From assembly GCA_024278415.1 (NCBI GenBank), contig JAJRTI010000397.1, positions 1-30,425 on the forward strand: DNA of 30,425 nucleotides, in the 5' to 3' direction. A program made the translations under genes and the position numbers. Below are positions 1,089-29,449 of this stretch, piece by piece. Within the stretch, counting starts at the first letter, position 1. Every line of letters begins with the position of its first letter. The notes beneath the pieces are model-generated. The model had not been told where the DNA came from. It did no database searches and saw only the letters and a program-made list of their open reading frames with translations. This DNA is from Planctomycetota bacterium (GTDB taxonomy: Bacteria; Planctomycetota; Brocadiia; JAJRTI01).

Positions 1089-4000
1089 TTACGCGCGGGA
1101 TGCGGCGCGGCGGGTGGGCGTCGTGGGTTCGAGATCGATCGCAGACTCCAGCGTCGCGATGTCGTCGAGGGTGAGGTCGTAAAGGCGGTACACGATCGCG
1201 TTCAACTCGCGTTCGGCCTGCGCGATTTCCGCGTCGATCTCTCGGACGCGCTCGGAGCGCTCGCGAAGCCATCCCTCCCATTCGTCGCGCTCGTTGAGAG
1301 GGATGTCGCGTTTGAAGAGCCGTTTGATCTCGCGGCGCACGTCTTGAAAGGCCATGAGCGCGAAGAGCGTGAGGTTGCGCGGCGACGCCGGGTTGCGCGG
1401 GATCGCCGCGCCGTCGCCCAGGTCGCACTCGACCCGATGCAACGTCGAATCCACAACCTCGTGGTATGCGCGGTGTAGCGCGATCAGGCGTTCCGCGCAA
1501 AGGCGGAGGCGCTCGGCTTCTTCGCCCTGCGGCATCACCAACGGAAACTCCGCCATGTGCTGCGGAAGAAGGCGGTAGCGCATCTGCCCAGCTCGCTCGT
1601 CTCGGTTTTGACAAACTTGCGTTATCGCGAACCACCCGACGTTCGAGTTAAGCAGCGCGAGAACTGCTCCGTCGTCGGTGGCGAACGCCATAGCCGTGTT
1701 GGCGATAATCCCGCCCGGTCGAGACAAGGCGGCTCGGGGGCCTTTCGCCGTGTCCGGCCAGATGATCGCCTCCGACTCGAACACATCCCAGTAGTCGCAA
1801 GACCTCAGGGCGAACCACGCACAGGCTCCGCTCTTGGCTTCGTCCCGTCCTGAGAGCGCGTCTTTCTGGGTGTCGAGGAATGCCTTGACTGTTGCAGATG
1901 CCCGATAGTCTTCCTCGTTGCGGACGCGTAGCAGGAGACTTTCTGATTCGGCCAGAACCCACGGCCTGATTTCGTTGCCGCGATAGTAAGGCCGGAGAAT
2001 GCGCGAGGCCTCGGCGTCCTGTGTCATCCAACTCTCAGCGGTGTCGCGCGGAACCACGAAGGAGGCTGTCCGGCCCGGCTTGATGCCGCTGTAGATTCGG
2101 CCGGCCACTTCAGTCAATGGCCGGGCTTGTGCGCGTATCTTCCGCCACACGCGCACGACCGCGGGAGCTTCGAAACGCCAACCCGCCGGGTCGAGCGAAG
2201 ATTGGGGAGTTTCGAAGCCATTCTGTTCGACGACCGCGGAGAGGCCGGTTTGCAAGCTGGGCACGGCCGCGTAGCGGATCGTGTGGCTCGCGTCGGCAGG
2301 CAGGCCGGGGCCCACGTCCATCACGATGATGGTGGGCCGCATGTCTACATCTTCGAAAGGTTTGAGCACGACGTAATCGACGATGCGCCGGATGCGGCCG
2401 GCCGCGGCGAGGCGGCGGCGAAGCGGTTCGGCGGCGGCCGTGCGCAGGTAGGCGTTGGAGGTAATGAAGCCCAGCGCTCCGCCTGGCCGCACGAGGCGCA
2501 ACGCGCGCTCGAAGAAGTAGAAATACAAATCCGCCTGGCCGTGCGCGACTTCGGGATAGGCGGCTTGCAGCGCGGCTTTGTGGCCCGCAGGCAGCCGCTC
2601 GCCGCGCACGTACGGCGGGTTGCCCACCACCACGTCGAACCCGCCCGCGGCCGTCACGTCGGGAAACCGCTCCGCCCAGTCGAACGCGCGGGGATCGACT
2701 TCGGGGTCGTCGATGAGGGAGTCGCCGCACTGGATGTTGTGGTCGAGATAGGTGAGGGGCTTGCCGGCGCGGGCGGTCTTGATCCAGAGCGAAAGTTTGG
2801 TGATTTCGACGGCTTCGGGGTTGATGTCCACGCCGTAGAGGTTGTTGCTGAGGATGAGCGTGTCGAGGTCGAAAATCTCGCGCTGGCCGCCGCGCAGTTG
2901 CGCGAGCCGCGCGTTGCAACGCTCGTACTCGCCGGCCAGGTAGTCGAAGACTTGGATGAGAAACGCTCCGCTGCCGCAGGCGGGGTCGAGCACGCGGGAG
3001 GCCCGGAGCACGTCGCGGTAGTCGGTCCAGAACTCGATCTCCGCCGCGGTGCGCCGCCGCGTGTGGGACGCGGGAATCTTGTCGAGCGCGTGGCGCTGCT
3101 CCAGCTCCTCGAAGCGCGCGTTCAGATACGCACCGACGGCCTCCTCGACGATGTAGCGCGTGATCTGCTCGGGCGTGTAGTACACGCCTTCCCGTTTGCG
3201 TTTGGACTTTTTGCGGTCGATCTGCGCGCCGGCGAACTCGGCCTTCAGGTTTTCAATGTCGCTGATGGACTGCTCGAAGATGTGGCCGAGAATGTCGACG
3301 TTGACCTCGGCCGCATAGTCGTAGCGGGCGAGCCCGCGGAAGCGCTCGCACACGTCGTCCGACACGACGAGGCCATCCAACACCTCGTCGGCCGCGAAGA
3401 GGCCGCCGTTGTACCCCGGGATGTTGAGCGGCGGGTTGCCCTGGTCCACCGCATGGAAGAGGCCCGCGAAGTTGCGCCACACCAGGACGGGCGCGAAGGG
3501 GTTCTGCTGCTCGTACGCGCGGTCGATGATGTGCGCGGGCAGCAGGCCGCGGTCCTCGCAGAAGCACACGAACAGGACGCGGTCCAGAATCTTCTGCGCC
3601 TTCTCCAGCAGCACGTGGTCGTCGTGCTGCGGGTGGTCTCGGCGCAGCGCGTCGAAGATGTCGAGCCGGATCTGCCTGTATTCGGCGTAGAGACGGTGGG
3701 TGATCTTCTCCTCTTCTTCGCCGGTCTCCTCCAGCAGGCGGTCGATGACCGACGCTCCCTTGCGCGCGACCACGTGCTCCGCGGCGAACAGGAAGCAGAA
3801 GCGCTTCAGCTCCTCCGGGTCGGTCTGCGTTTCGAGCCGGAAGACCTCGTAGTGCTGCTGGGAGCGGTTCTTGTGGTAGAGGCGAATCTCGCGGTAGTTG
3901 CTGACGATGATCCAGTCGCATTCGAGGTTGATCGCGTACTGGTAGCACTGCTCGACCGCGGTCCATCGCCGGCCGGAGGGCCGGGTGTCGAGGTCCGCGT

Positions 4001-4352
4001 CCGCGGCCTTGAGTTCGATCGCGGCAACGTAGGTCTTGTGCTCGTCGGTGAAGTGGCCCAGCACGCCGTCGGCGAATTTGCCGTCCACCTGGACGGTCTC
4101 CTCGCGCGCGCAAGTCCACACGTCCCGGCCTTCGCTCAGGCTCGTGTATCCGAGCACGGTCTGGAAGAAATCGACGAGGAAGAGGCCCTGGAGCTGAGTC
4201 TCTTTGGTCTTTTCCAGCCGGCCCCGGTCCAGGGTCGCTCTCCAGCGCGCGACGACCGCGGCCTTCGCGCCCACCGGTTCGGGGATGGCGAATCCCTCCA
4301 GCCGCGCCTGCACGAGCCGGGGGTTGAAGAGGGGCTTGCGTTGCAAGGCCAT
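1089..4352 (-). CDS. type IIG-like restriction-modification enzyme (Eco57I-type, 1087 aa)
   Basis: This is a single-chain restriction enzyme and N6-adenine DNA methyltransferase that probably cleaves unmodified foreign DNA in the cytoplasm. The N-terminal ~200 residues fit a PD-(D/E)XK nuclease: FADG near 93-96, then the E113-L-K115 core after a hydrophobic strand. A helical region with YNGGLF (314-319) and GVYYTPEQIT (389-398) follows. The methyltransferase shows motif I DPACGSGAF (456-464) and the adenine-MTase motif IV NPPY (578-581). The C-terminal ~300 residues should be the target-recognition region and end in a helical TaqI/Eco57I-like tail. The ATG has a GGAGGG site six bases upstream. 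The gene looks intact. No separate S, M or R subunit is nearby, so it is probably self-contained; the two small downstream genes may be passengers or accessories. Confidence 0.88.
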   Translation of the reverse strand: MALQRKPLFNPRLVQARLEGFAIPEPVGAKAAVVARWRATLDRGRLEKTKETQLQGLFLVDFFQTVLGYTSLSEGRDVWTCAREETVQVDGKFADGVLGHFTDEHKTYVAAIELKAADADLDTRPSGRRWTAVEQCYQYAINLECDWIIVSNYREIRLYHKNRSQQHYEVFRLETQTDPEELKRFCFLFAAEHVVARKGASVIDRLLEETGEEEEKITHRLYAEYRQIRLDIFDALRRDHPQHDDHVLLEKAQKILDRVLFVCFCEDRGLLPAHIIDRAYEQQNPFAPVLVWRNFAGLFHAVDQGNPPLNIPGYNGGLFAADEVLDGLVVSDDVCERFRGLARYDYAAEVNVDILGHIFEQSISDIENLKAEFAGAQIDRKKSKRKREGVYYTPEQITRYIVEEAVGAYLNARFEELEQRHALDKIPASHTRRRTAAEIEFWTDYRDVLRASRVLDPACGSGAFLIQVFDYLAGEYERCNARLAQLRGGQREIFDLDTLILSNNLYGVDINPEAVEITKLSLWIKTARAGKPLTYLDHNIQCGDSLIDDPEVDPRAFDWAERFPDVTAAGGFDVVVGNPPYVRGERLPAGHKAALQAAYPEVAHGQADLYFYFFERALRLVRPGGALGFITSNAYLRTAAAEPLRRRLAAAGRIRRIVDYVVLKPFEDVDMRPTIIVMDVGPGLPADASHTIRYAAVPSLQTGLSAVVEQNGFETPQSSLDPAGWRFEAPAVVRVWRKIRAQARPLTEVAGRIYSGIKPGRTASFVVPRDTAESWMTQDAEASRILRPYYRGNEIRPWVLAESESLLLRVRNEEDYRASATVKAFLDTQKDALSGRDEAKSGACAWFALRSCDYWDVFESEAIIWPDTAKGPRAALSRPGGIIANTAMAFATDDGAVLALLNSNVGWFAITQVCQNRDERAGQMRYRLLPQHMAEFPLVMPQGEEAERLRLCAERLIALHRAYHEVVDSTLHRVECDLGDGAAIPRNPASPRNLTLFALMAFQDVRREIKRLFKRDIPLNERDEWEGWLRERSERVREIDAEIAQAERELNAIVYRLYDLTLDDIATLESAIDLEPTTPTRRAASRA

Positions 4353-10000: not shown

Positions 10001-11047
10001 CTAGGGCCCGTCCAGCGTGGCGGGGTTCTTCATGCGCGCTTTGGCCTCCTCATACGTGATGCGCCCCTTGAGGTAGAGGTTCTTCAGAGACGTGTCCAGG
10101 GTGTGCATGCCCTCTTTGGCTTGCGTCTCCATGACGCTGTAGATCGCGTGCGCCTTGCCCTCGCGGATCAGGTTGGCGACGGCCCCGGTGTTGATGAGCA
10201 GCTCCGTGGCCACGACGCGGCCCTTGCCGTCCGCGGTGGGGATGAGGCGCTGCGAAAGCACCGCGGTGAGGCTGAACGCGAGCTGCGAGCGGATCTGGCC
10301 CTGTTGGTACGGGGGGAACACATCGAGCAGGCGGTCGATGGATTGGACCGCGTCGTTGGTGTGGAGCGTGGCGATAACGAGGTGGCCGGTCTCGGCCGCG
10401 GTCATGGCCGCGGCGATGGTGTCGAGGTCGCGCATCTCGCCGATGAGGATCACGTCGGGGTCTTGCCGCAGCACATGCGAAAGCGCGGCTGCGAAGCCGC
10501 GCGTGTCCTCGCCCACCTCGCGCTGGTCGATGACGCTCTTCTTGTTGCGGTGCATGAACTCGATGGGATCCTCGATGGTCACGATGTGCGAGCGGCGCCG
10601 GGCGTTGATGTGGTCCACCATTGCGGCTTGGGTGGTGGACTTGCCGTGGCCGGTGGGGCCGGTGCACAGGATGAGGCCTTGGTGGCGCATGGCCAGGTCC
10701 TTCACCTTCTCGGGCAGCCCCAAGTCGTCGAGGGACGGCATTTCAGTGGGGATGAGCCGGAACGCGGCCCCCACGCACCCGCGTTGCATGTACACGTTGC
10801 CGCGGAATCGATGCGCGCCCTCGACGAAGATGGAGAAGTCCAGTTCCATCTCCTCCTCGAACCGCGCAATCTGCCGGTTTTCCAGCACGCTGTACACGAG
10901 GCTCTTAGAGGCGTCCGGCGTCAGCGGCGGCGAGTTGGTGAGCACCAACTCGCCGTTGATGCGTAGCGCCGGCGGCGAGCCCGCGCTGATGAGGACGTCG
11001 GACGCGCTGTGCTGGAGCGCGAATTTGAGCAGTTCACTCATCTGCAT
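10001..11047 (-). CDS. pilT: PilT-type retraction ATPase (348 aa)
   Basis: This is a cytoplasmic hexameric ATPase of the type II/IV secretion superfamily. PilT depolymerises type IV pili for twitching motility. Visible motifs are Walker A GPTGHGKST (130-138), the Asp box TIEDPIEF (157-164), Walker B DVILIGEMRD (198-207), the His box HLVIATLHTND (222-232) and a C-terminal AVANLIREGK (289-298) that matches the PilT-specific AIRNLIRE helix. Length is typical. The first of two nearby ATGs is preferred because AGGAG sits seven bases upstream. It starts 27 bases after the GT39-AsmA gene, so the two are probably co-transcribed. No pilB, pilC or pilin gene is in the window; the pilus itself must be encoded elsewhere. 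Confidence 0.93.
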   Translation of the reverse strand: MQMSELLKFALQHSASDVLISAGSPPALRINGELVLTNSPPLTPDASKSLVYSVLENRQIARFEEEMELDFSIFVEGAHRFRGNVYMQRGCVGAAFRLIPTEMPSLDDLGLPEKVKDLAMRHQGLILCTGPTGHGKSTTQAAMVDHINARRRSHIVTIEDPIEFMHRNKKSVIDQREVGEDTRGFAAALSHVLRQDPDVILIGEMRDLDTIAAAMTAAETGHLVIATLHTNDAVQSIDRLLDVFPPYQQGQIRSQLAFSLTAVLSQRLIPTADGKGRVVATELLINTGAVANLIREGKAHAIYSVMETQAKEGMHTLDTSLKNLYLKGRITYEEAKARMKNPATLDGP

Positions 11048-11074: not shown

Positions 11075-14000
11075 CTATCTCCCCTTGTTGCCGTTGGTCT
11101 CTTCAATGATGCCAACCAATCCGCCAATTGCGCGGGCGATTGGGAGCAGCGGCACCATCACCCACGCGGGGTCGTCGTACGTGCCTTTGAGTTCCACGGG
11201 GAAAATCATGCGTTTGGCCGCGTTGATGATCTTGGTGGCCACGGGCAGCTTGTTGTCCTTGCCCAGCTCCGGCCTGAACTTGAAGTTGAGTTTGTGGGTG
11301 GCTGCGTCGAACTCGCCTGTGCCGTAGAGGGAAAGCACGGGCCCGATGAGGTCCGCCCGATTGAAGATCGCGACCGGGCCGTACACCTGGTACGACAGCT
11401 CTGCGCGGGTGAACGCGGCCGCGTCGAGTGTGGCGAGTTTGACCAAGTTCAAGATGCCCAGGACGAGGGGCAGTTCGCCCAGTTTCCCTTCGGAGAGGAT
11501 AAGGGCGCCCTTGGCTCTGAATTTCTGGCCGTTGCTTTCCATGCCCTCAAAGCTTGCGCTGGCCGCGACCTTGCCGGCCAAGTTCTTCACCTTGCGGCGT
11601 TCCTTTTCTTGGGGCGTGAACAGGTTCTCGATGCGCAGGCCGTCCACGTGGAGTTCGCCCTTGTACCTCCTGTAGGTGTTCGGCGAGTCCTCGATGATCT
11701 GAAGCTTGCCATTGATTCTGCCTCCCATTAACGCGCCTTGGATGCCCTCGATGTCGATCCGCCCGGCGACCTCGCTATACGAGCAGGTCAGGTCCGTGAT
11801 GGGGTAGTTGTGGATCGTCGCCCGGTCGATGGAGAGCTTGCCCGTGAGGCTGCGCTTGGACTGCTCGGCCAAGATGCCCCGGAAGGTGATCGCGCCTTGG
11901 CAGTCCGTCACCTTGACTTGCGTGTCCGTGGCGATGCCCTGGAGGGTCAGCGTGCCATCCGCCCAGAGGGGCGACTCGTCCCCGGCGCTCTTGACAACCG
12001 CATCGAGCCCGACCGCTCCGCTGGGCTTGACGCGCAGGTACCATTTGTACGCTCCCGGACCTGCGGCTTTGAACAGGGCCTCGGTCAGCGGCAGCTTGTC
12101 CACGCGCACGCGCAGGCGCCGCTTGGCCTGCGCGAATGTGCCGTCCACCTTCACAGGTGTGTCGCCGAGCAGGGCCTGGAGCTGAAGCGTGCCCTTCATG
12201 CCGGCAGAGCACACGATCTGCCCGGTGATCTGCCTGAGCGGCAGGGGGAAGCCCTTGTGGTTCACGGCGTTCGCGTCCGGCCGGAACAGGAGCGTATGCT
12301 CGATGGCGGCCTTCTTGCCCGATTTGCGGTGCAAGCGATAGAGGCCGCTCATGCGCCCCTTGGGATTGAGCTGGGCCCACACGGCCTGAAGCCCGCGGTC
12401 GAGGATGCCGCGGAACCGTTCGTTGAGTGGAATGTGTGTGAACTTGATAGGCAGCACGAACTCGGCCTCAGGGTCGTAGTAGATCGTGGCCTCTTTCAGG
12501 CTCAGCTTGCCGCCATCGAACTCGCCGGCCAAGTTGCGAAGCTGGGCCCGGTCCTCGAGGAAATCGATGTCGCCGGTGATGGCGCGGATGGGCAGCCGAA
12601 AGTTGGCGTACGCCATGCTACAGCCCTTGAACCTTGCGGCGATCTTTTCCAGGTGCGGCTTCGGGTCGCCCTCACGCCACTTGAGGTCCACGTCCACGTC
12701 CGCGGCGCCGCTGGGCTTGAAGTCGTTCCAGACCTTGTGATAGTGCTGGGGCAGCGCGGTGAGCAACGTGTGGTCGACTTTGAGGTTTCGAGCCTCGAGG
12801 GTCAGCATGGCCCCGGGGGGCGGCGGGATCCGAAGCTGTGCGTCTCGAACCCGCACCGTGGCCCCCCGCGCCCGGCCCTGGCAGCCGGCCAGCTTGATGC
12901 TGCCGCGCCGCCACTCGATTCGGCCTTGAGCTTCGGTCACCGGGTAGGCGAAGTGGCGGTACGTGAAGTCCACGCCCTTCGCGACGGCCACGGCCCTCGT
13001 GCGGACGTCGTCGTCGTCCTCCTTGTCGTAGTCCACGTAGGCGGCGAGGTCGACCGTGCCGGACGTGATCCCGGCCGCCAGCCAGATCTGTTGGGCCGCG
13101 GGGGACAGCCTCTTTCGGAACTCGGGCGTCAGGCGAATACCGGATCGAGTGACCGCGAAGTGCAAACGGGGGCCGGCCACGTCGAGTTCGCCTTGCATCT
13201 GCACGCGGCCGAGCACGGGATCGTTCCACGAGGACTGGACATGGAACACGCTTCCCCCGCGCTTCTTGGGGAAGATGGAGGTCTTCCATTGGCGGAGTTC
13301 CGCCACGACGCGGCCATCCCTCACGACTCGCATGGAGCCCTCGCTGCTCACCGTGGGGCTGCCGGCCGAGCGCAGCAGGTTCGCGAGCATGGCGATGACC
13401 GATGGCACGTGCACGCGCGACTTGGGCCGCAGGCGGATGGTGATCTCCACGCCCTCCATGCGCACCATGTCAATCGTGACTTTGCGGTTCACCAAGGGCA
13501 GCCAGCGGTGCTTGAGCATGGCCCGCTGTGCGTGGAAGCTGGCTGGGAGGCCGCCGGGCACTTTGAACTCCAGATTCACGCCCTTGCACTGCACGCCGGA
13601 CCAAGGGTTGACCGTAAACTCCTGGATCGTGGCCGGCCCGCCGAAGTACTTCCGCAGGGATTCGTTGACGAGTTGCTGGAGTTTGCCGCGCTCCACCGCG
13701 AGGTGCCACGCGTAGCCCAGCGCCACGGCCGCGAGCACGGCGACCCCGGCCCACGCGGCGAGCACGTCGCCGCGCACGCGCAACTGGCCCCGCCGCGCGC
13801 GGGCATGGTAGTTGGTCGCCAGCGCGTGGCCGGCAAAGACGATGACCAGGGACATGATCGGCGTGCGGTAGCGTGTCGAGCCCACGAACACCGAGTGGAG
13901 CGCCGCGAAGTAGGCGACCGGCAGCAGCAACAGGAGCAGCTCCCGCGGGCGCCGGGGCGCCACCAAGAGGCCGATCAGGCCGAGCACAAAGATGGGCCCG

Positions 14001-15016
14001 ACAAACATCGCGCTGAGCACGCGATAGTGCAGCGCGCGGTAGCCCTCATAGTTGGGCACGAGGTTCCAGAACCGCTTGGCCCGGTGCAGCGTCAGCCGGC
14101 CGAAGCGCGCCCAGTCGGAGCGGATCACCTCCACCGCCTTGCGCAGGAGGTAGCGGTCGCGCTCGTACTCCGACATGTCCTTGATCCCTTCGGGCCACTT
14201 GATGCGGTCCATGGCCGGGCCGCCGTCCGCGTCGGGAGCGTTGGACTCGTAGAGCGACGCGCCGACTTGGAGGGTCGTGGGCACGAACTTGCCGGTGATG
14301 CGGTAGTTGCGCCAGACCCACGGCGCCATGACCGCCGCGAACGCGGCCGCGAGCAGCAGCCAGCATCGGGCCTGCCGCCTCCGGTGCGGCTCGCCGATGA
14401 AGTAGAGCGGCAGCGCGGCCGGAAGCATGAGCATGGCCGAGGGGCGGGTGAGCACGGCCACGCCAAACGTGAGGCCGGCGAGCAACGCCGCCCACCACGA
14501 CGGCCGGTGCAGGAGGCGCCGCATGAGCAGCACCCACAGGACGAGTTCGAAGGTGAACAGGGTCTCGGAGAGCGCGGTACCGGTGTAGAACACGAAGAAC
14601 GGGTAAACGGCCGCGATCGCTCCGGCCGCCGCGCCACAGACATAGCCCGAAAGGCCGCGGGCCAGCAGGTAGATGAGCACACAGGTGAGTGCGCCGAGGA
14701 GGGCCTGTGTGATGCGGATGGGCACCAGGCTGTCGTGAAAGAAGCGCTGCGACGCGGCCAGCAGGAGCGGGTAGACCGGCGCGCGGCAGACTTGGAGCCC
14801 GGTGTCGAAGGTGATGCCCTGCCCGTTGAGGAAGCGCCGCGCCACTTGCCAGTACGTATTCTCGTCGTGGAAGCGCGGCTCCGGCCCCAAGTTGAGCACG
14901 TACGCCAGGCGCACGGCGATCGCGGCGAGGAAAATCGCCCAGGGGAGCCATCGCTTGGCGTGCGCGGACGCGGCGCGAGTCGCGGCGGGGGGCGTGGGCT
15001 GTGGGTCGGCGGTCAC
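11075..15016 (-). CDS. GT39-type glycosyltransferase fused to AsmA-like domain (1313 aa)
   Basis: This is one continuous frame with two very different halves. Residues 1-410 form a polytopic GT39/ArnT-like enzyme: a first helix near 23-42, then an exported loop with the acidic pair D51-E52 expected of polyprenyl-phosphate-sugar transferases, about nine further helices, and STRYRTPIMSL (380-390) in the usual late position. A last helix at about 417-436 leads to a beta-rich AsmA-like region (about 440-1300). The end of that region is typical of AsmA_2: SEGKLGELPLVLGILNL, GPVLSLYGTGEFDAATHKLNF, FPVELKGTYDDPAWV. AsmA-family proteins such as TamB, YhdP and YdbH carry lipid across the periplasm. 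The start is a GTG without a clear ribosome site and is uncertain. It lies 156 bases after mlaD. Roles in envelope glycolipid modification plus transport are inference. Confidence 0.82.
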   Translation of the reverse strand: MTADPQPTPPAATRAASAHAKRWLPWAIFLAAIAVRLAYVLNLGPEPRFHDENTYWQVARRFLNGQGITFDTGLQVCRAPVYPLLLAASQRFFHDSLVPIRITQALLGALTCVLIYLLARGLSGYVCGAAAGAIAAVYPFFVFYTGTALSETLFTFELVLWVLLMRRLLHRPSWWAALLAGLTFGVAVLTRPSAMLMLPAALPLYFIGEPHRRRQARCWLLLAAAFAAVMAPWVWRNYRITGKFVPTTLQVGASLYESNAPDADGGPAMDRIKWPEGIKDMSEYERDRYLLRKAVEVIRSDWARFGRLTLHRAKRFWNLVPNYEGYRALHYRVLSAMFVGPIFVLGLIGLLVAPRRPRELLLLLLPVAYFAALHSVFVGSTRYRTPIMSLVIVFAGHALATNYHARARRGQLRVRGDVLAAWAGVAVLAAVALGYAWHLAVERGKLQQLVNESLRKYFGGPATIQEFTVNPWSGVQCKGVNLEFKVPGGLPASFHAQRAMLKHRWLPLVNRKVTIDMVRMEGVEITIRLRPKSRVHVPSVIAMLANLLRSAGSPTVSSEGSMRVVRDGRVVAELRQWKTSIFPKKRGGSVFHVQSSWNDPVLGRVQMQGELDVAGPRLHFAVTRSGIRLTPEFRKRLSPAAQQIWLAAGITSGTVDLAAYVDYDKEDDDDVRTRAVAVAKGVDFTYRHFAYPVTEAQGRIEWRRGSIKLAGCQGRARGATVRVRDAQLRIPPPPGAMLTLEARNLKVDHTLLTALPQHYHKVWNDFKPSGAADVDVDLKWREGDPKPHLEKIAARFKGCSMAYANFRLPIRAITGDIDFLEDRAQLRNLAGEFDGGKLSLKEATIYYDPEAEFVLPIKFTHIPLNERFRGILDRGLQAVWAQLNPKGRMSGLYRLHRKSGKKAAIEHTLLFRPDANAVNHKGFPLPLRQITGQIVCSAGMKGTLQLQALLGDTPVKVDGTFAQAKRRLRVRVDKLPLTEALFKAAGPGAYKWYLRVKPSGAVGLDAVVKSAGDESPLWADGTLTLQGIATDTQVKVTDCQGAITFRGILAEQSKRSLTGKLSIDRATIHNYPITDLTCSYSEVAGRIDIEGIQGALMGGRINGKLQIIEDSPNTYRRYKGELHVDGLRIENLFTPQEKERRKVKNLAGKVAASASFEGMESNGQKFRAKGALILSEGKLGELPLVLGILNLVKLATLDAAAFTRAELSYQVYGPVAIFNRADLIGPVLSLYGTGEFDAATHKLNFKFRPELGKDNKLPVATKIINAAKRMIFPVELKGTYDDPAWVMVPLLPIARAIGGLVGIIEETNGNKGR

Positions 15017-15172: not shown

Positions 15173-16336
15173 TCACTTCTTCTTCATTTCTCCCGTGGCC
15201 GACTGGACGGCCGCCGCGGCCTCCTTGAGCTGGCTCACCATCTGGCTCACCTCGCCCAATTGCTGCTTCACCGCGGCGTTGGGCGTCTCGGTCAGGGCCA
15301 GCAGCTTCTCCAGCGACCCGTCCAAACGCCTCAGGATCTGGTCGAGGTCCTGTGCGGCTACGCTCACGGCCTTCTCTCCCTCTGGCGGTGCGGACTTGCG
15401 GATCGCCTTCCAGGGGTGCCGCTTCACGTCGTCGGCCCACACGCGCAGGCTCCCGGCTGCGTCGCGCACGTTCTTCACGGTCGTCTTCACGTCCGCCGCG
15501 TTCGAGTCGAGCATGGCGTTGAGCTTGCCGAGCGTCTCTGCGGCCGTTTGGAGCACTTGCGTCGCAGAGTCCGCGCTCTTGCGGGCTTGGGCGAGTGCGT
15601 CCTTGGCTTGGGCCGCGGTCTCCTTCAACTCGGCCAGCAGGCTGCCCACGCCGTCGGAGTGTGTGTTGAGGAACTTGGCGGTCGAGTCTGCGGCTCCGCG
15701 GATGCTGGCGAGCGAGCCCTGCACCTCGCCCTTGGCTTCGGTCAGCGTCGCCAGGTTCTGGCCCACTTGGTTCAGCTTATCGGCAAAGGCTTCGAGGTTG
15801 GCGATGAACTTGCGCACGCTCTCGCGCTGGCCGTCCCCCAGCATGTCGTTGAGCCCGTCGAGCACGCGGTTGACCTTGGCTTGCGTATCGCCGAGCTTCT
15901 GTTGGATCTGCTTGGTGATGTCCTGCAATTCGGGCACCGGCTCGCCGGGGTGCACCGCGTTCTTGGGAAGCAGCGCGCCCTTGCCCGGCCGAATCTCCAC
16001 CGAGGTCTTGCCGGTGAACGTCTTGCCGATGCGCACGACCGCGTCCTCGCGCAGGCGGTATCTGGACTCCAGCTCCAGCGTCAGCACCACGCGAGGCGCT
16101 TTGCCGTCTTGGGCTTCCTCCACGGTGAGGCCGACGACGCGGCCCACGTTCACGCCGGCGTAGAGCACGGGGTCGTTGACCTTGAGCCCGCGGATCTCGC
16201 GGAACCACACCTTCACCTTCGTGGTCCTCGTGAAGAGGGCCTCGATGTCGCTGACGAGGAAGATGACGGTTACCAGCGCTACGATGGACACGATGATCAT
16301 CGTGCCGGCTTTGAGTTCGGATCGAGAGTTTTCCAA
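15173..16336 (-). CDS. mlaD: MCE/MlaD-type lipid-transport substrate-binding protein (387 aa)
   Basis: This is the periplasmic, inner-membrane-anchored MCE subunit of an Mla-type phospholipid or hydrophobic-compound ABC transporter. It starts ENSRSELKAG, then one membrane helix (about 12-28), then the MCE domain (about 38-117: VKVWFREIRGLKVNDPVLYAGVNVGRVVGL and SVEIRPGKG). The remaining ~250 residues are helical, rich in A/K/E/Q, and predicted to form long coiled coils or a tunnel, as in longer MCE proteins rather than short E. coli MlaD. The TTG start is set by GGAG seven bases upstream and by the family's usual N-terminus; the open frame upstream is shadow of mlaF. The mlaF stop is five bases before this TTG. 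Confidence 0.9.
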   Translation of the reverse strand: MENSRSELKAGTMIIVSIVALVTVIFLVSDIEALFTRTTKVKVWFREIRGLKVNDPVLYAGVNVGRVVGLTVEEAQDGKAPRVVLTLELESRYRLREDAVVRIGKTFTGKTSVEIRPGKGALLPKNAVHPGEPVPELQDITKQIQQKLGDTQAKVNRVLDGLNDMLGDGQRESVRKFIANLEAFADKLNQVGQNLATLTEAKGEVQGSLASIRGAADSTAKFLNTHSDGVGSLLAELKETAAQAKDALAQARKSADSATQVLQTAAETLGKLNAMLDSNAADVKTTVKNVRDAAGSLRVWADDVKRHPWKAIRKSAPPEGEKAVSVAAQDLDQILRRLDGSLEKLLALTETPNAAVKQQLGEVSQMVSQLKEAAAAVQSATGEMKKK

Positions 16337-16340
16337 CGCG

Positions 16341-17204
16341 TTACTCCGCCAAGAGGTCTTGCGCGTAGTCGGTGAACGACTGGCGCAGCGGGATGGGCCC
16401 GTCCGGGGCGCCGGTGACGAATTGCCGCACCAGCGGGTTCTGCGTGTTCTTGATCGCGTCCGGCGTGCCCTTCTCCACCACCTTGCCATCGTACAGGATG
16501 ACCATCACGTCCGCGACGCGGAACGCGGAGATCATGTCGTGGGTGACCACGACCGACGTGACTTCGAGTTTCTCGCTGAGGTCGGCGATGAGTTCGGAGA
16601 TGACGCCGCCCACAATGGGATCGAGGCCGGCGGTCGGTTCGTCGTAGAAGAGGATCTCCGGATCGAGGGCGATGGCCCGCGCCAGGCCGACGCGCTTCTT
16701 CATGCCGCCGCTGATCTCCGCAGGCTTGAGGTCTTCGAACCCGCGCAGACCGACCAATTCGAGCTTCATCTTCACCATGATGCTGATGATGTTCTCGCCG
16801 AGGTCGGTGTGCTCGCGCATGGGCAAGGCCACGTTTTCAGCCACGGTCATGGAGTTGTACAGCGCGCCGGATTGGAACAGCACGCCGAAGCGCCGGCGCA
16901 TGGCGTTGAGTTCGTCGTAGCTGAGCTTGGAGATGTCCCGGCCGAACATCTTCACGTACCCCTCGTTGGGCTGATGCACGCCGATCATGTGGCGCAGCAC
17001 CGTGCTCTTGCCACAGCCGCTGCCGCCCATGATGACCAACGTCTGGCCCTTGTAGACCTCCATGTTCACGCCGTCGAGCACCGTGTGGTCGCCGAAGCGC
17101 TTGACGAGGTCGCGCACCTCGATCACCGGTTCCCCTTGGGCCGGCCGGGGCGCGGCCTTGGCCTTGGGCACGAAGTCGATCGGGCTGATGGGCGCTTGGG
17201 GCAT
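16341..17204 (-). CDS. mlaF: MlaF-type ABC transporter ATPase (287 aa)
   Basis: This is the cytoplasmic ATPase that powers MlaE/MlaD lipid movement. In the 287-residue form the motifs are Walker A GGSGCGKST (60-68), Q-loop FQSGAL (110-115), signature ISGGM (164-168), Walker B ILFYDEP (184-190) and switch histidine H222 (VTHD). A glutamate follows the Walker B aspartate as required. Family traits include the MKKRVGLARA run after the signature. The start is uncertain: an upstream TTG at 17237 is in frame, but the intervening sequence looks non-coding and neither site has a clear ribosome-binding site, so the ATG at 17204 is used. A proline- and alanine-rich ~25-residue tail precedes the ABC domain. 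Confidence 0.92.
   Translation of the reverse strand: MPQAPISPIDFVPKAKAAPRPAQGEPVIEVRDLVKRFGDHTVLDGVNMEVYKGQTLVIMGGSGCGKSTVLRHMIGVHQPNEGYVKMFGRDISKLSYDELNAMRRRFGVLFQSGALYNSMTVAENVALPMREHTDLGENIISIMVKMKLELVGLRGFEDLKPAEISGGMKKRVGLARAIALDPEILFYDEPTAGLDPIVGGVISELIADLSEKLEVTSVVVTHDMISAFRVADVMVILYDGKVVEKGTPDAIKNTQNPLVRQFVTGAPDGPIPLRQSFTDYAQDLLAE
16344..16347 (-). promoter_or_regulatory. ribosome-binding site deciding the mlaD TTG start
   Basis: GGAG on the minus strand lies seven bases from the TTG at 16334-16336 and overlaps the last codons of mlaF, which couples the two genes. Confidence 0.6.
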
Positions 17205-17240
17205 TGGGGCGGAATGGTTAATGGTTGATGGGGGCAAGAC

Positions 17241-17255
17241 GCGGCCGGAGGCCGA
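17241..17255. repeat. hairpin between mlaE and mlaF (GCGGCC-N3-GGCCGA)
   Basis: A 6-3-6 inverted repeat with one mismatch lies two bases past the mlaE stop codon. It is the same element type as at 4376, 8398 and 30411. Inside an operon it may protect the mlaE message or cause partial attenuation before mlaF. Confidence 0.45.
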
Positions 17256-17256
17256 A

Positions 17257-18063
17257 TCACAAAATTTGGAAGAAGACCGCGGTGAAGATGAGGTCGGCGA
17301 TGATGGTGAAGACGATGGCGCGCACCACGGAGTTCGTGGTGGCCTTGCCCACGCCTTCCGCGCCGCCAGACACGTTCAGGCCCTCGTAACAGGCGATGAG
17401 CACGATGAGGATCGCGAAGCCTTCGATCTTGATGAGGCCGGAGATGACGTCCTTGGCCTTGAGCGCGTCGCAGGTGCGCCGAAAGTAGAGCAACGCCGGG
17501 ATGTCGAGCAGGGTCGTGCCCACAATGAAGCCGCCAAGCAGGCCGACCAGGTTCGACAGCACGGTCAGACACGGCAGCATGATCATGCAGGCGAACAGCC
17601 GCGGCACGACGAGGAAGCGAATGGGGTCAATGGCTGAGGTTTCGAGTGCGATGATCTCTTCGGAGACTTCCATCGTGCCCAGCTCGGCCGCGATGGCCGC
17701 GCCCACGTACCCGGCCATGACGATGGCGGTGAGCAGCGGCCCTAGCTCTCTCATGATCGCAATGCCGACGATGTCGGCCGTGAGGTCGGTAAAGCCCACG
17801 ACGCGCAGGACCAAGGCCATCTGGAAGGCCAGGATCATGCCCACGAAGAGGATGACAAGGAAGGTGATGGGGATGGATCGCACGCCCACGCGAACCATTT
17901 GCTCGAATGCGGCCCGCCTGCCGAACTTGAGCCCCTTCATGGGCCCCACGGTCGCCCAGTAGATGCCATCCTGCAGGAGGTACCACATGCCTCCCATGTA
18001 TTCCAGCGTGGCAATGCCGGTGCGGCCGATGCCGCCAACCGCGTTCACGAGTCGCGACGCCAA
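17257..18063 (-). CDS. mlaE: MlaE-type lipid ABC transporter permease (268 aa)
   Basis: This is the inner-membrane permease of the MCE lipid transporter, pairing with MlaF and MlaD. An N-terminal amphipathic region (about 1-35) leads to hydrophobic segments near 62-82, 98-125, 150-185 and 240-268. Family motifs are seen: ELGPLLTAIVMAGYVGAAIAAELGTMEVSEEIIAL (given here as a pointer to residues 106-140) and DPIRFLVVPRL (147-157). The TTG start is fixed by AGGAGG six bases upstream. Length fits the family. It follows the STAS gene by 64 bases. Confidence 0.93.
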   Translation of the reverse strand: MASRLVNAVGGIGRTGIATLEYMGGMWYLLQDGIYWATVGPMKGLKFGRRAAFEQMVRVGVRSIPITFLVILFVGMILAFQMALVLRVVGFTDLTADIVGIAIMRELGPLLTAIVMAGYVGAAIAAELGTMEVSEEIIALETSAIDPIRFLVVPRLFACMIMLPCLTVLSNLVGLLGGFIVGTTLLDIPALLYFRRTCDALKAKDVISGLIKIEGFAILIVLIACYEGLNVSGGAEGVGKATTNSVVRAIVFTIIADLIFTAVFFQIL

Positions 18064-18127: not shown

Positions 18128-18460
18128 CTATGCCGAGAGGGCCTCCTCTTCGGAGTCCATGATCTGGAACACGCGGTTCAGGCCCGACAACTCGAAAATG
18201 TCCTTCACGTTGTCGTTCATGCCGATGAGCACAAGCTGGGTATCCAACTTCTTGGTGCTCTGGAGGCACTCCACGAGCGTCGCCAGCCCGGAGCTGTCGA
18301 TATACTTGACCTCGGCTAGGTTGACCACGATCCGCTTGGGTTCCTTCGCCACAAGGTCGCGGAGCTGTTCCCGCATCTTCGGCGAACTCTGCATGTCGAT
18401 CTCGCCACTGGCGTCGACAATGCAACCGCCTTGCGCGTCGCGTGTGGACACGTTCATCAT
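18128..18460 (-). CDS. STAS-domain protein, RsbV/SpoIIAA- or MlaB-like (110 aa)
   Basis: This is a one-domain STAS protein. The conserved phosphorylation site is present as YIDSSGLATL (53-62) with S56 as the likely target. Such proteins are anti-anti-sigma factors that are switched off by an RsbW-type kinase. In Mla systems a STAS protein (MlaB) binds MlaF and is needed for transporter assembly. Here the gene sits between an RsbW-like kinase (three bases away) and mlaE, so both readings fit. The ATG-ATG start overlaps weakly purine-rich sequence at the end of the kinase gene; coupling is likely. No sigma factor gene is in the window, which leans toward a transporter or other partner, but this is inference. 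Confidence 0.88.
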   Translation of the reverse strand: MMNVSTRDAQGGCIVDASGEIDMQSSPKMREQLRDLVAKEPKRIVVNLAEVKYIDSSGLATLVECLQSTKKLDTQLVLIGMNDNVKDIFELSGLNRVFQIMDSEEEALSA

Positions 18461-18463
18461 GGG

Positions 18464-18898
18464 TCACTCTTCCTCTGGGGGTCGCAGATGTTTCAGCATC
18501 CGGAGTTCGATGCCGTCTTGACAATCCGGGTTGTACTTCACTTCGTCCATCACCTGCCGCATGATACACAACCCCAGGCCGCCGGGCTGCGAGAGGTCTT
18601 CCTTCTCGAAGCCCTCGATGAAAGCCGGATTCTCGCTCTCGCCGAAGTCCTTCAGCAGCACCTCCAAGTGCTCGCCCGGCACCCACTTGCAGGTGATGAT
18701 GATGCGCTGGGTCGTGTCGCCTTTGTAGCTGTGGCGGATCACGTTCGTGCACGCCTCGTCCACGGCCAGCATGATCCGCCGAGACTCCCGCTCCTCGAAG
18801 CCGGCCTGAAGCGCGGCCTGTTGGATAAAGCCCCTGCTCAGCGGCAGCAACTCGGGATCGCTGGAGGTCTCTAGCACTACGACGTGATTGTCCGTCAC
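18464..18898 (-). CDS. RsbW-like serine kinase / anti-sigma factor (144 aa)
   Basis: This is a GHKL ATPase of the HATPase_c_2 type that phosphorylates STAS partners and, in classical systems, binds sigma factors. Seen are the N-box (VDEACTNVIRHSYKG, E48 and N52), the G1 box KDFGE (83-87) and the G2 box GGLGL (107-111). The GTG start at 18896-18898 has GGGAG five bases upstream. The frame remains open further up to 19093, but a strong promoter lies inside that stretch, which rules out the longer form as the main product. It is first gene of the leftward STAS-mlaE-mlaF-mlaD group. The partner may be the adjacent STAS protein. Confidence 0.88.
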   Translation of the reverse strand: MTDNHVVVLETSSDPELLPLSRGFIQQAALQAGFEERESRRIMLAVDEACTNVIRHSYKGDTTQRIIITCKWVPGEHLEVLLKDFGESENPAFIEGFEKEDLSQPGGLGLCIMRQVMDEVKYNPDCQDGIELRMLKHLRPPEEE

Positions 18899-18903
18899 TG
18901 TCA

Positions 18904-18908
18904 CTCCC
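18904..18908 (-). promoter_or_regulatory. ribosome-binding site for the RsbW-like gene
   Basis: GGGAG lies five bases before the GTG at 18896-18898 on the minus strand and sets the start well below the open frame's upper limit. Confidence 0.55.
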
Positions 18909-18983
18909 AGGGTATGGCAGGGGGAGGAGGCCGCGGCAGCCCATGCGCGCACAGGGCGCCCGATAACCGCAGTCAAAGGCAGG

Positions 18984-19012
18984 ATTCTATCGGCCCCCTC
19001 GTGGACTGTCAA
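18984..19012 (-). promoter_or_regulatory. strong sigma-70-type promoter for the rsbW-like/mla operon
   Basis: On the minus strand a perfect TTGACA (19007-19012) and TAGAAT (18984-18989, five of six) are separated by exactly 17 bases. The transcript should begin near 18977, about 80 bases before the GTG of the kinase gene. This is the best promoter match in the window. Confidence 0.75.
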
Positions 19013-19135
19013 GGTCTTTCGCCCGGCGACTGCGGAACAGACACACGGTACGCCGACGGGGAGCCGCCTCGCCGCGGCCAGGCTCCGGCTCAAGCGGGCC
19101 AGTGGCTCCCATCGGCCATGGGCGCCTCGGCAGCA

Positions 19136-27897: not shown

Positions 27898-29169
27898 TCA
27901 GCCCGCCATCGCCTCCCGCGCCTCCTCCAACAGGCGCACCGACTCCGCCACCACGATCTCCCCAGCCTCTGCCGCAACCTTGGCCGACCGCGCGTCGAGC
28001 AATTCGTACCCGCCTTCGTCGTACGCCGCTCGATGGGGGATGTAGCCCACGTAGTCGTTGGCCAGCTCCACGACGTACGTGTACGCGAACGGCGATTGCC
28101 GCTTGATCTCTCGGCCCAGCTCGACGCACAGCTCCCCGGGGTTGGCCACGAACGCCACGTCGTTGATCGCCAGCACTTGGAGCCACGTCTTGACTTCCGT
28201 GTCTCCTGCTTCGTGCAGCCTGCGCCACTCCTCTCTGAACACCTCCTCCCCGTCCGGCCAGTCGCGGCGGATCGCGTCGATGCGCAGCTTCGAGAAATCG
28301 CGCAGGGGCAACGTGACCTCGACCTTCTTCGCCCACAGCCGCACGTCGGGCGTGGTCTGGAGGCCATCGGCCAGGCGCAGCAACTCCTTTGCGAGCGCTT
28401 CGCCCACCTGGTTCGCACCGGCCGTGGGGTTGAGATTCCCGCAGGCGCCCGCAGTGTAGAGCGTCGGCGACGCGATCGCGTCGCGCAGGTGTTGGTCCAC
28501 GCGCACGGGGTACGAACCATCGATCCGATTGTTCGGCGGCTCGTGGCAATTCGCGTGGAGCGTGTAGTTGAACACGGAGGCGATGGGCTCCTCCTGCGCG
28601 TTCTTCACCATCACAAAACCCACTTCGGGATCGATCTCCCCCGCCGGCCCCACGACCTCGTCCGGGTCGGGCCGCAGCCAGGTGTTGCGCACGTAGCCGG
28701 ACTTGAGCAGCACGCGCCGGTAGTGGGACGACTCCTCGTGCCGGCCCGACGCCACGCCCACGCTCGCCGGTTCGAGGCGTTCATGTGCAAGCGTGGCCGC
28801 GTCCGCGATGTAGCGCGGCAGCAGCGCAAGGTAGTGGCTGTCCAGACAGCCTTCGGGCGAGAACACGCCGCTCGTGTAGGGGCCCGCGTGGGTGTGCGAC
28901 GCGGCGACCAGGACGTGCTCCGGCGGGATGCCTGTTCGCTCGGCAATGGCTGCGGTCGCCGCGTCCACGATCTCGTGGGCCAGCACACACAGGTCCACGG
29001 CCACAATGGCCGCGGCCCTCTGGCCATCGTCCAGCGCGAGCGCACGCACGGACAGCGGCGTGCCTACGCTTACGGACGCTCTCGGACGCAAACCGCCGCA
29101 GAGTGCGACGCCAATGGGCGGGGTGATGTCGCATTCACCGAAGCCGGCGCGGAAGGCTGCTTCTGCCAT
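27898..29169 (-). CDS. neutral/alkaline ceramidase-like protein (423 aa)
   Basis: This is a relative of the N-terminal domain of neutral non-lysosomal ceramidases, zinc amidases that hydrolyse ceramide. Shared traits are AGFGECDITPPIGVALCG (7-24), the zinc-ligand-like ASHTHAGPYTSG (114-125 region), NYTLHANCHE with two histidines, and ACGNLNPT in place of the usual G-GD-NP. The C-terminal immunoglobulin-like domain of true ceramidases is missing and there is no signal peptide, so it should be cytoplasmic. Members like this are common in PVC-type genomes and their substrates are not known. The ATG at 29169 has GGAG eight bases upstream; the frame is open for 80 more codons but a likely promoter lies inside. 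Confidence 0.82.
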   Translation of the reverse strand: MAEAAFRAGFGECDITPPIGVALCGGLRPRASVSVGTPLSVRALALDDGQRAAAIVAVDLCVLAHEIVDAATAAIAERTGIPPEHVLVAASHTHAGPYTSGVFSPEGCLDSHYLALLPRYIADAATLAHERLEPASVGVASGRHEESSHYRRVLLKSGYVRNTWLRPDPDEVVGPAGEIDPEVGFVMVKNAQEEPIASVFNYTLHANCHEPPNNRIDGSYPVRVDQHLRDAIASPTLYTAGACGNLNPTAGANQVGEALAKELLRLADGLQTTPDVRLWAKKVEVTLPLRDFSKLRIDAIRRDWPDGEEVFREEWRRLHEAGDTEVKTWLQVLAINDVAFVANPGELCVELGREIKRQSPFAYTYVVELANDYVGYIPHRAAYDEGGYELLDARSAKVAAEAGEIVVAESVRLLEEAREAMAG

Positions 29170-29212
29170 GAGTGGTTCTCCACCAAGAAAGGGCCTCGTA
29201 TCGTGACGCGGC

Positions 29213-29241
29213 ATGTTACTTTCTGAATGCGGCCTCGACAA
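29213..29241 (-). promoter_or_regulatory. tentative promoter for the ceramidase-like gene
   Basis: On the minus strand TTGTCG (29236-29241) and TAACAT (29213-29218), each four of six, are 17 bases apart. The transcript would start near 29206, giving a leader of about 37 bases. Confidence 0.35.
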
Positions 29242-29398
29242 GCGGCTCGTCTGTAACGCGAGCCAACGGCGCTCGTAACGGGAGCGATGCCTGGCGGTCT
29301 CGCGCAACGATTGGCCACGAGTTTCCCCAGGATTTCCACCTCTTACAACGAGTGTCATGTACACGAGGCCGTGCGGGACGCGCGGGGCGTTTCTAGTG

Positions 29399-29449
29399 GG
29401 GCGATTCATCGCCCGCTTTTCAGCGTTGATGACGGGCCATGAATGGCCC
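29399..29449. repeat. pair of 7-2-7 palindromes
   Basis: GGGCGAT-TC-ATCGCCC (29399-29414) is identical to the copy at 19136. A second palindrome of the same shape, GGGCCAT-GA-ATGGCCC, is at 29434-29449. They behave as one composite REP-like unit of about 50 bases. Confidence 0.7.

Follow-up and report, generated by a model that had tools for sequence, protein, structure and literature searches.

In a stretch of 30,425 nucleotides from a Planctomycetota bacterium (assembly GCA_024278415.1, contig JAJRTI010000397.1), the whole of which is henceforth called the window, we found a gene in which a membrane glycosyltransferase (GT) of the GT-C kind is fused to an AsmA-like groove region. Many Planctomycetota encode the same two parts as a gene pair, of which this gene is a fused version and not a lone oddity; the coupling of the GT with the AsmA-like protein is well supported. 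Both families are known already, and we have not seen the conserved GT-AsmA pair or the fusion in print: literature searches, which reached few subscription papers, turned up no publication on either, and a term search of PMC8593681 and PMC10900882 found neither. A bridge tied to one enzyme, as here by gene pairing and by fusion in several clades, offers a way into the loading and the cargo of AsmA-type bridges: the product of that enzyme would be the likely cargo, and the junction would show where loading happens.

An intact two-domain chain with fused relatives

The gene is one open frame on the minus strand, with a GTG start and zero internal stops. Its parts are as follows:

11075..15016, minus strand: GT-C/AsmA-like fusion gene, 1313 amino acids in a single open frame, with fused homologues P0003-P0009
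13793..15016, minus strand: GT-C glycosyltransferase domain, residues 1-408, from the PMT_2 match and the model
14864..14866, minus strand: codon of Asp51, in the predicted first periplasmic loop, a putative catalytic or metal-binding acid
13706..13777, minus strand: membrane-spanning helix that anchors the AsmA-like half, residues 414-437, from hydropathy, with a model helix at 416-442 (low confidence there)
11078..13699, minus strand: AsmA-like repeating beta-groove region, residues 440-1313, from the models and a profile link to AsmA/YhdP/TamB-annotated proteins

A homologue search over ~5.8 billion proteins, in which 7994 candidates were scored, returned 10 matches including the window protein itself. 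Four of these are near full-length fused homologues at 47-58% identity; the others are one truncated fusion (1182 amino acids), two fusions at 30-32% identity and two proteins matching over the AsmA half only. Both PMT_2 and DUF748 were matched at E <=0.1 in all eight alignment members. Two more fusions, L094 and L099, were recovered from planctomycete genomes; the L099 chain ends at a contig end after 627 residues, and its AsmA part is based on a rebuilt profile (86 bits) and a two-domain match that extends to model position 511. The first-pass annotation, made from the letters of the window, had proposed a 1313-residue two-domain chain, and had asked whether homologues always encode the halves as separate genes. 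They do not, and the proposed chain is borne out, the frame being intact and the homologues fused likewise. A read error or an assembly join of two genes was accordingly rejected: although the sequences of the fused relatives were themselves drawn from public assemblies, several are near full-length, and chains fused the same way recur in other clades, which leaves an artefact a negligible probability. The fusion of a GT-C transferase to an AsmA-like groove is thus confirmed as real.

The fused form is scattered on the trees. An 82-row transferase tree requires three changes to account for the fused rows, and well supported branches force them. Five of these rows make up the window clade, P0008/P0009 are placed next to the split L016, and L094/L099 next to the split L100. 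A careful 34-row GT tree agrees, with a single fused clade being rejected (approximately unbiased test, p 2.9e-5), and a 37-row tree of the AsmA half, built without L099, likewise has the fused rows in three places and requires three changes. Such counts cannot separate fusion from fission; two or three fusion events are the simplest reading.

A conserved GT-AsmA gene pair in Planctomycetota

We searched 392 planctomycete genomes, of which 231 match one half or the other at 1e-20, and fetched 60 GT-centred places (from 59 genomes) along with 20 AsmA-centred places. An AsmA-like gene lies directly downstream on the same strand in 43/60 of the GT-centred places, as a separate gene in 41 and fused in two; since these places were drawn from the two-domain-profile table, this fraction is not a phylum rate. 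No GT stands beside the AsmA-like gene in any of the 20 AsmA-centred places. In an earlier genome scan covering 57 GT loci, the AsmA half is adjacent as a separate gene in three (L016, L025 and L024), all from Planctomycetota, with that of L024 present only up to the contig end. Addition of L016 and L025 to the 43 yields a set of 45 pairs. The pair count used an AsmA profile rebuilt from the matches; an initial profile, based on fusions alone, recovers the AsmA frame of 43/45 pairs and misses L099 and L149, both of which are cut by contig ends. Beyond the planctomycetes, where sampling comprised the loci of the 57-locus scan and four further genome searches, Omnitrophota loci with two GTs have no AsmA half. 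The L001 and L017 genomes carry AsmA-like frames on contigs other than that of the GT.

In all 45 pairs the GT comes first and the AsmA-like gene second. By longest-frame coordinates, 16 of the 43 split pairs overlap and the remaining 27 are spaced by 2-244 bp; with starts chosen by us, the GTG start of the AsmA-like gene overlaps the GT stop in L016, and in L025 the GT stop and AsmA start share a TGATG overlap. The pair is a self-standing unit: no further neighbour is conserved to the same extent, the next commonest cluster occurring in 11/45 loci, and 31/45 pairs are free of additional genes on their strand for 150 bp, a figure from rough gene calls that miss some genes and with contig ends counted as none. 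The paired transferases themselves are diverse (52 rows with a median identity of 32% and a minimum of 22%, falling into 14 groups at 40%). This combination of pairing and fusion makes it likely that the GT and the AsmA-like protein act jointly. The alternative, that the genes are only co-transcribed under common regulation and that overlapping genes were fused by chance, draws on the general knowledge that one small deletion can fuse overlapping genes, and on the fact that pairs from near relatives are not independent, with two of the 14 groups containing 23 and 8 of the 52 paired rows. However, the pair is kept at GT identities down to the 22% minimum while the flanking genes turn over, and the fused form appears in separate clades; we therefore give co-expression without joint action little weight.

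Predicted structure and affinities of the two halves

AlphaFold modelling was done in two overlapping parts, namely residues 1-1200 (mean predicted local distance difference test score, pLDDT, 83.6; predicted template modelling score, pTM, 0.47; 34 sequences in the alignment) and residues 420-1313 (mean pLDDT 83.9, pTM 0.63, 17 sequences). The first model has a helical domain at 11-408, followed by a helix at 416-442 and then by repeated strand sheets, which in the second model continue toward the C-terminal end. With its pTM and its low confidence at ~411-570, the first model does not fix the placement of the groove relative to the enzyme or to its exit side.

In the GT half, PMT_2 (PF13231) matches residues 78-235 with 69.3 bits against a cut-off of 26.1 (E 5.9e-19), and the predicted model has a GT-C fold, with oligosaccharyltransferases and Pmt enzymes among its best fold matches. 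As to this fold, the model supports the initial description of a GT39/ArnT-like polytopic enzyme. Closer family assignments did not follow: the GT39 family PMT (PF02366) scores 22.2 bits, below its curated cut-off of 22.7, the ArnT equivalog of NCBIfam has no match to the window protein at E 0.1 and scores L001, a relative, at 21.9 bits where 567 are required, and no NCBIfam cut-off is reached by the window protein or the tested GT relatives. Likewise, only one member of the acidic pair D51-E52 pointed out in the first-pass annotation stands. Asp is invariant at position 51 (82/82 aligned GT rows); Glu, although present in the window protein, occupies position 52 in only 15/82 rows, so that the Asp-Glu motif expected of GT39 is not a conserved feature here. 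By analogy with the GT-C superfamily, Asp51 presumably has a catalytic or metal-binding role.

The AsmA-like half is predicted to form an elongated groove of ~40 strands in repeats, and in both models long strand runs are broken by regularly spaced helix pairs (residues 212-229, 330-347, 447-464 and 560-577 in the numbering of the second model). In the 40 strands the hydropathy difference between alternate residues is 2.19, as against 1.57 in shuffled strands (sd 0.19; 1/2000 shuffles as high), which fits one oily face of a groove. At ~0.47 nm per strand, 40 strands are estimated to span up to 19 nm, the order of a periplasm. The anchor at 414-437 corresponds to the N-terminal helix of stand-alone AsmA-like proteins, and the half has the single N-terminal transmembrane helix before a periplasmic part that is seen in the AsmA-like superfamily; with the threshold used, a helix was found within the first 450 residues of 40/43 split partners.

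An elongated AsmA or bridge-type beta structure had been anticipated, and the models agree, the outcome of no groove not having occurred; the typical AsmA C-terminus also anticipated stays below the Pfam threshold, the AsmA match at residues 1057-1138 of the window protein having 24.0 bits against a cut-off of 29.8. DUF748 at residues 423-545 similarly scores 20.8 bits against 50, and the window protein is above the curated cut-off of none of the AsmA, DUF748 and YhdP families. The split partner in L105 is above that of YhdP (55.3 versus 46 bits), and the AsmA-like family profile matches proteins with AsmA, YhdP or TamB domains (best E 1.5e-43). A sequence search of solved structures gave no match for the window protein, and one with the AsmA profile gave a single weak, unrelated match. 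Among the structure matches listed for the groove, none of the TamB, YhdP and YdbH groove domains is prominent; a TamAB chain ranks 49th with Foldseek, and VIA-align lists TamA barrels among its matches. The groove may have the fold of the solved lipid bridges Vps13, ATG2 and LPD-3, with which it was compared by structure. Separately, four proteins of 2099-2221 amino acids (P0027, P0029, P0030 and P0036) combine TamB (PF04357), POTRA (PF07244) and an Omp85 barrel (PF01103), and are TamA-TamB type fusions.

Possible joint action of the enzyme and the groove

Given a GT-C fold and a groove with one-sided hydrophobic strands, both of which come from prediction, an enzyme plus a lipid path is the simplest joint action. 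We tentatively propose, at somewhat below even probability, a two-part envelope module, with an enzyme that would glycosylate a lipid on the outer side of the inner membrane and a groove that would move lipid onward. Here, the sugar would come from a polyprenyl-phosphate carrier and be transferred by the inner-membrane GT-C enzyme, on the periplasmic side, to an acceptor that is most likely of the lipid A type or another lipid of the envelope. The AsmA-like partner, tethered next to the enzyme through one helix, may then receive the lipid in its hydrophobic beta groove, perhaps by direct hand-over, and would guide it through the periplasm as far as the outer membrane. In most sampled genomes with the module the parts are encoded by adjacent, in some cases overlapping, genes, and in the window lineage and at least one other they form one chain. 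That the lipid would be both modified and exported is inferred from AsmA relatives in Escherichia coli, which, according to PMC8912898, act in phospholipid transport from the inner to the outer membrane. A more specific version is possible but doubtful: a dedicated glycolipid export line, present as a pair in many Planctomycetota and fused more than once, in which a lipid completed by the enzyme on the outer side of the inner membrane would enter directly a cargo-selective bridge of the AsmA type that belongs to this enzyme and spans the periplasm.

Two other kinds of joint action deserve consideration. TamB was first described as acting on envelope proteins, and the enzyme might glycosylate proteins at the Sec exit, with the AsmA-like half being a periplasmic scaffold for envelope proteins and carrying no product. 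The oligosaccharyltransferases and Pmt enzymes among the fold matches suit this, as does the AsmA-like GspN, reportedly tied to lipoprotein movement to the surface (PMC12802150); but the modelled fold of the partner, with its one-sided hydrophobic strands, appears to be of the lipid-bridge kind, and the lipid A enzyme LpxH adjoins some modules, so we regard this alternative as rather unlikely. Still less probable, in our estimate, is a groove that serves the enzyme by bringing its lipid acceptor or returning spent polyprenyl phosphate, leaving lipid export to other AsmA proteins. The uniform gene order, the anchor placed directly after the enzyme in the fusion, and the AsmA-like genes with other neighbours in the same phylum (the 20 AsmA-centred places) all favour this idea, against which stands the inner-to-outer direction of transport by the E. 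coli relatives.

Several known systems resemble the proposed module in part. In comparison to TamB, YhdP, YdbH and AsmA, a whole polytopic glycosyltransferase is N-terminal here or encoded by the adjacent gene; the operons of TamB and YdbH reportedly include an outer-membrane protein (PMC8912898). The enzyme shares with ArnT and other PMT_2 GT-C transferases its PMT_2 domain, modelled fold and invariant first-loop Asp; it differs from them in reaching no NCBIfam cut-off and in being coupled to a bridge-like protein; the periplasmic domains of known GT-C enzymes are of other kinds. MprF, in which a lipid-aminoacylating enzyme is fused to its flippase, is similar in joining a lipid-modifying enzyme to a lipid-moving part, but its enzyme is unrelated and uses aminoacyl-tRNA, and it flips the lipid within one membrane. 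MlaEFD and other MCE systems also transport lipids across the periplasm, and Mla genes lie upstream in the window; however, they are not conserved beside the GT-AsmA module.

Gene neighborhoods and hints to the substrate

The fusion is flanked in the window by:

15173..18063, minus strand: MlaD, MlaF and MlaE-like MCE transporter genes, upstream of the fusion, from Pfam
10001..11047, minus strand: PilT-like ATPase gene, 27 bp downstream of the fusion, from a T2SSE match, local synteny only

The first-pass annotation had linked the fusion to the MCE transporter and suggested a check of mlaEFD synteny, which did not sustain the link. Within <=~8 kb on each side, relatives of MlaF and MlaE occur in 0/45 pairs and in 1/82 loci overall, and the 57-locus scan gave only two distant ABC-ATPase matches for MlaF, with MlaE and MlaD unmatched; MCE was thus rejected as a conserved working partner. 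The sole MCE-type match among the 82 loci is in L171, where an AsmA-like gene (1280 amino acids) lies ~5 kb from MlaE/MlaF-like genes. PilT was also rejected as a partner, being near a GT or a GT-AsmA pair only in L016, L025 and L098 (65-67% identity), with a distant ATPase in L124.

A DPM1-like GT2 gene is directly downstream of the GT in 20/117 GT-bearing loci (with Pfam for one), none of which are pairs. The synthase thus adjoins unpaired relatives, a likeness to PMT_2 GT-C transferases, and it fits a polyprenyl-phosphate sugar donor for the GT family. LpxH acts in lipid A synthesis. In 4/45 pair loci (L094, L136, L137 and L138) the gene immediately after the pair is LpxH-like, as is the gene immediately after the GT in L098; L136, L137 and L138, from three divergent planctomycete genomes, share a four-gene order of alanine racemase, GT, AsmA-like and LpxH. 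The LpxH-like proteins of L094, L136, L138 and L098 pass one NCBIfam LpxH cut-off (163-188 versus 134 bits) but miss a second (145-168 versus 190 bits). An LpxH relative is present in 200/392 genomes and stands beside a GT or a GT-AsmA pair in at least five (G050, G026, G058, G095 and G070). This adjacency, a thin hint, leans toward a saccharolipid substrate. In Planctopirus limnophila, for which a genome-wide essential-gene study has been published, nearly all lipid A genes are reported as essential in that study (PMC10632474). In L098, from G058, the GT has TilS before it and the LpxH-like and PilT genes after it, and an AsmA gene is missing in between.

The commonest clusters among other neighbors of the pairs (e.g. 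in L096 and L107) include those of a sulfatase, in 11 loci, and of a fatty acid hydroxylase and a FlgI-like protein, in 9 loci each, probably reflecting lineage synteny. Ten upstream frames of the AsmA-centred places comprise three for queuosine synthesis, two Lar_N (one below cut-off), one alanine racemase, one FG-GAP and three without a family. The stand-alone AsmA-like genes of L165, L170 and L168 are directly downstream of queuosine synthesis genes (PF02547), and the first two of these cluster in the AsmA tree. Upstream of MlaE in the window, 18128-19093 encodes STAS and HATPase_c_2 proteins, of which the former may be an MlaB-like subunit or an anti-sigma antagonist. Elsewhere in the window are a large Eco57I/MmeI-type restriction-modification methylase of 1087 amino acids (1089-4352) and, in the same stretch as the lipid transport genes, a weak match to neutral/alkaline ceramidase at 27898-29409 (22.3 bits versus a cut-off of 32.1).

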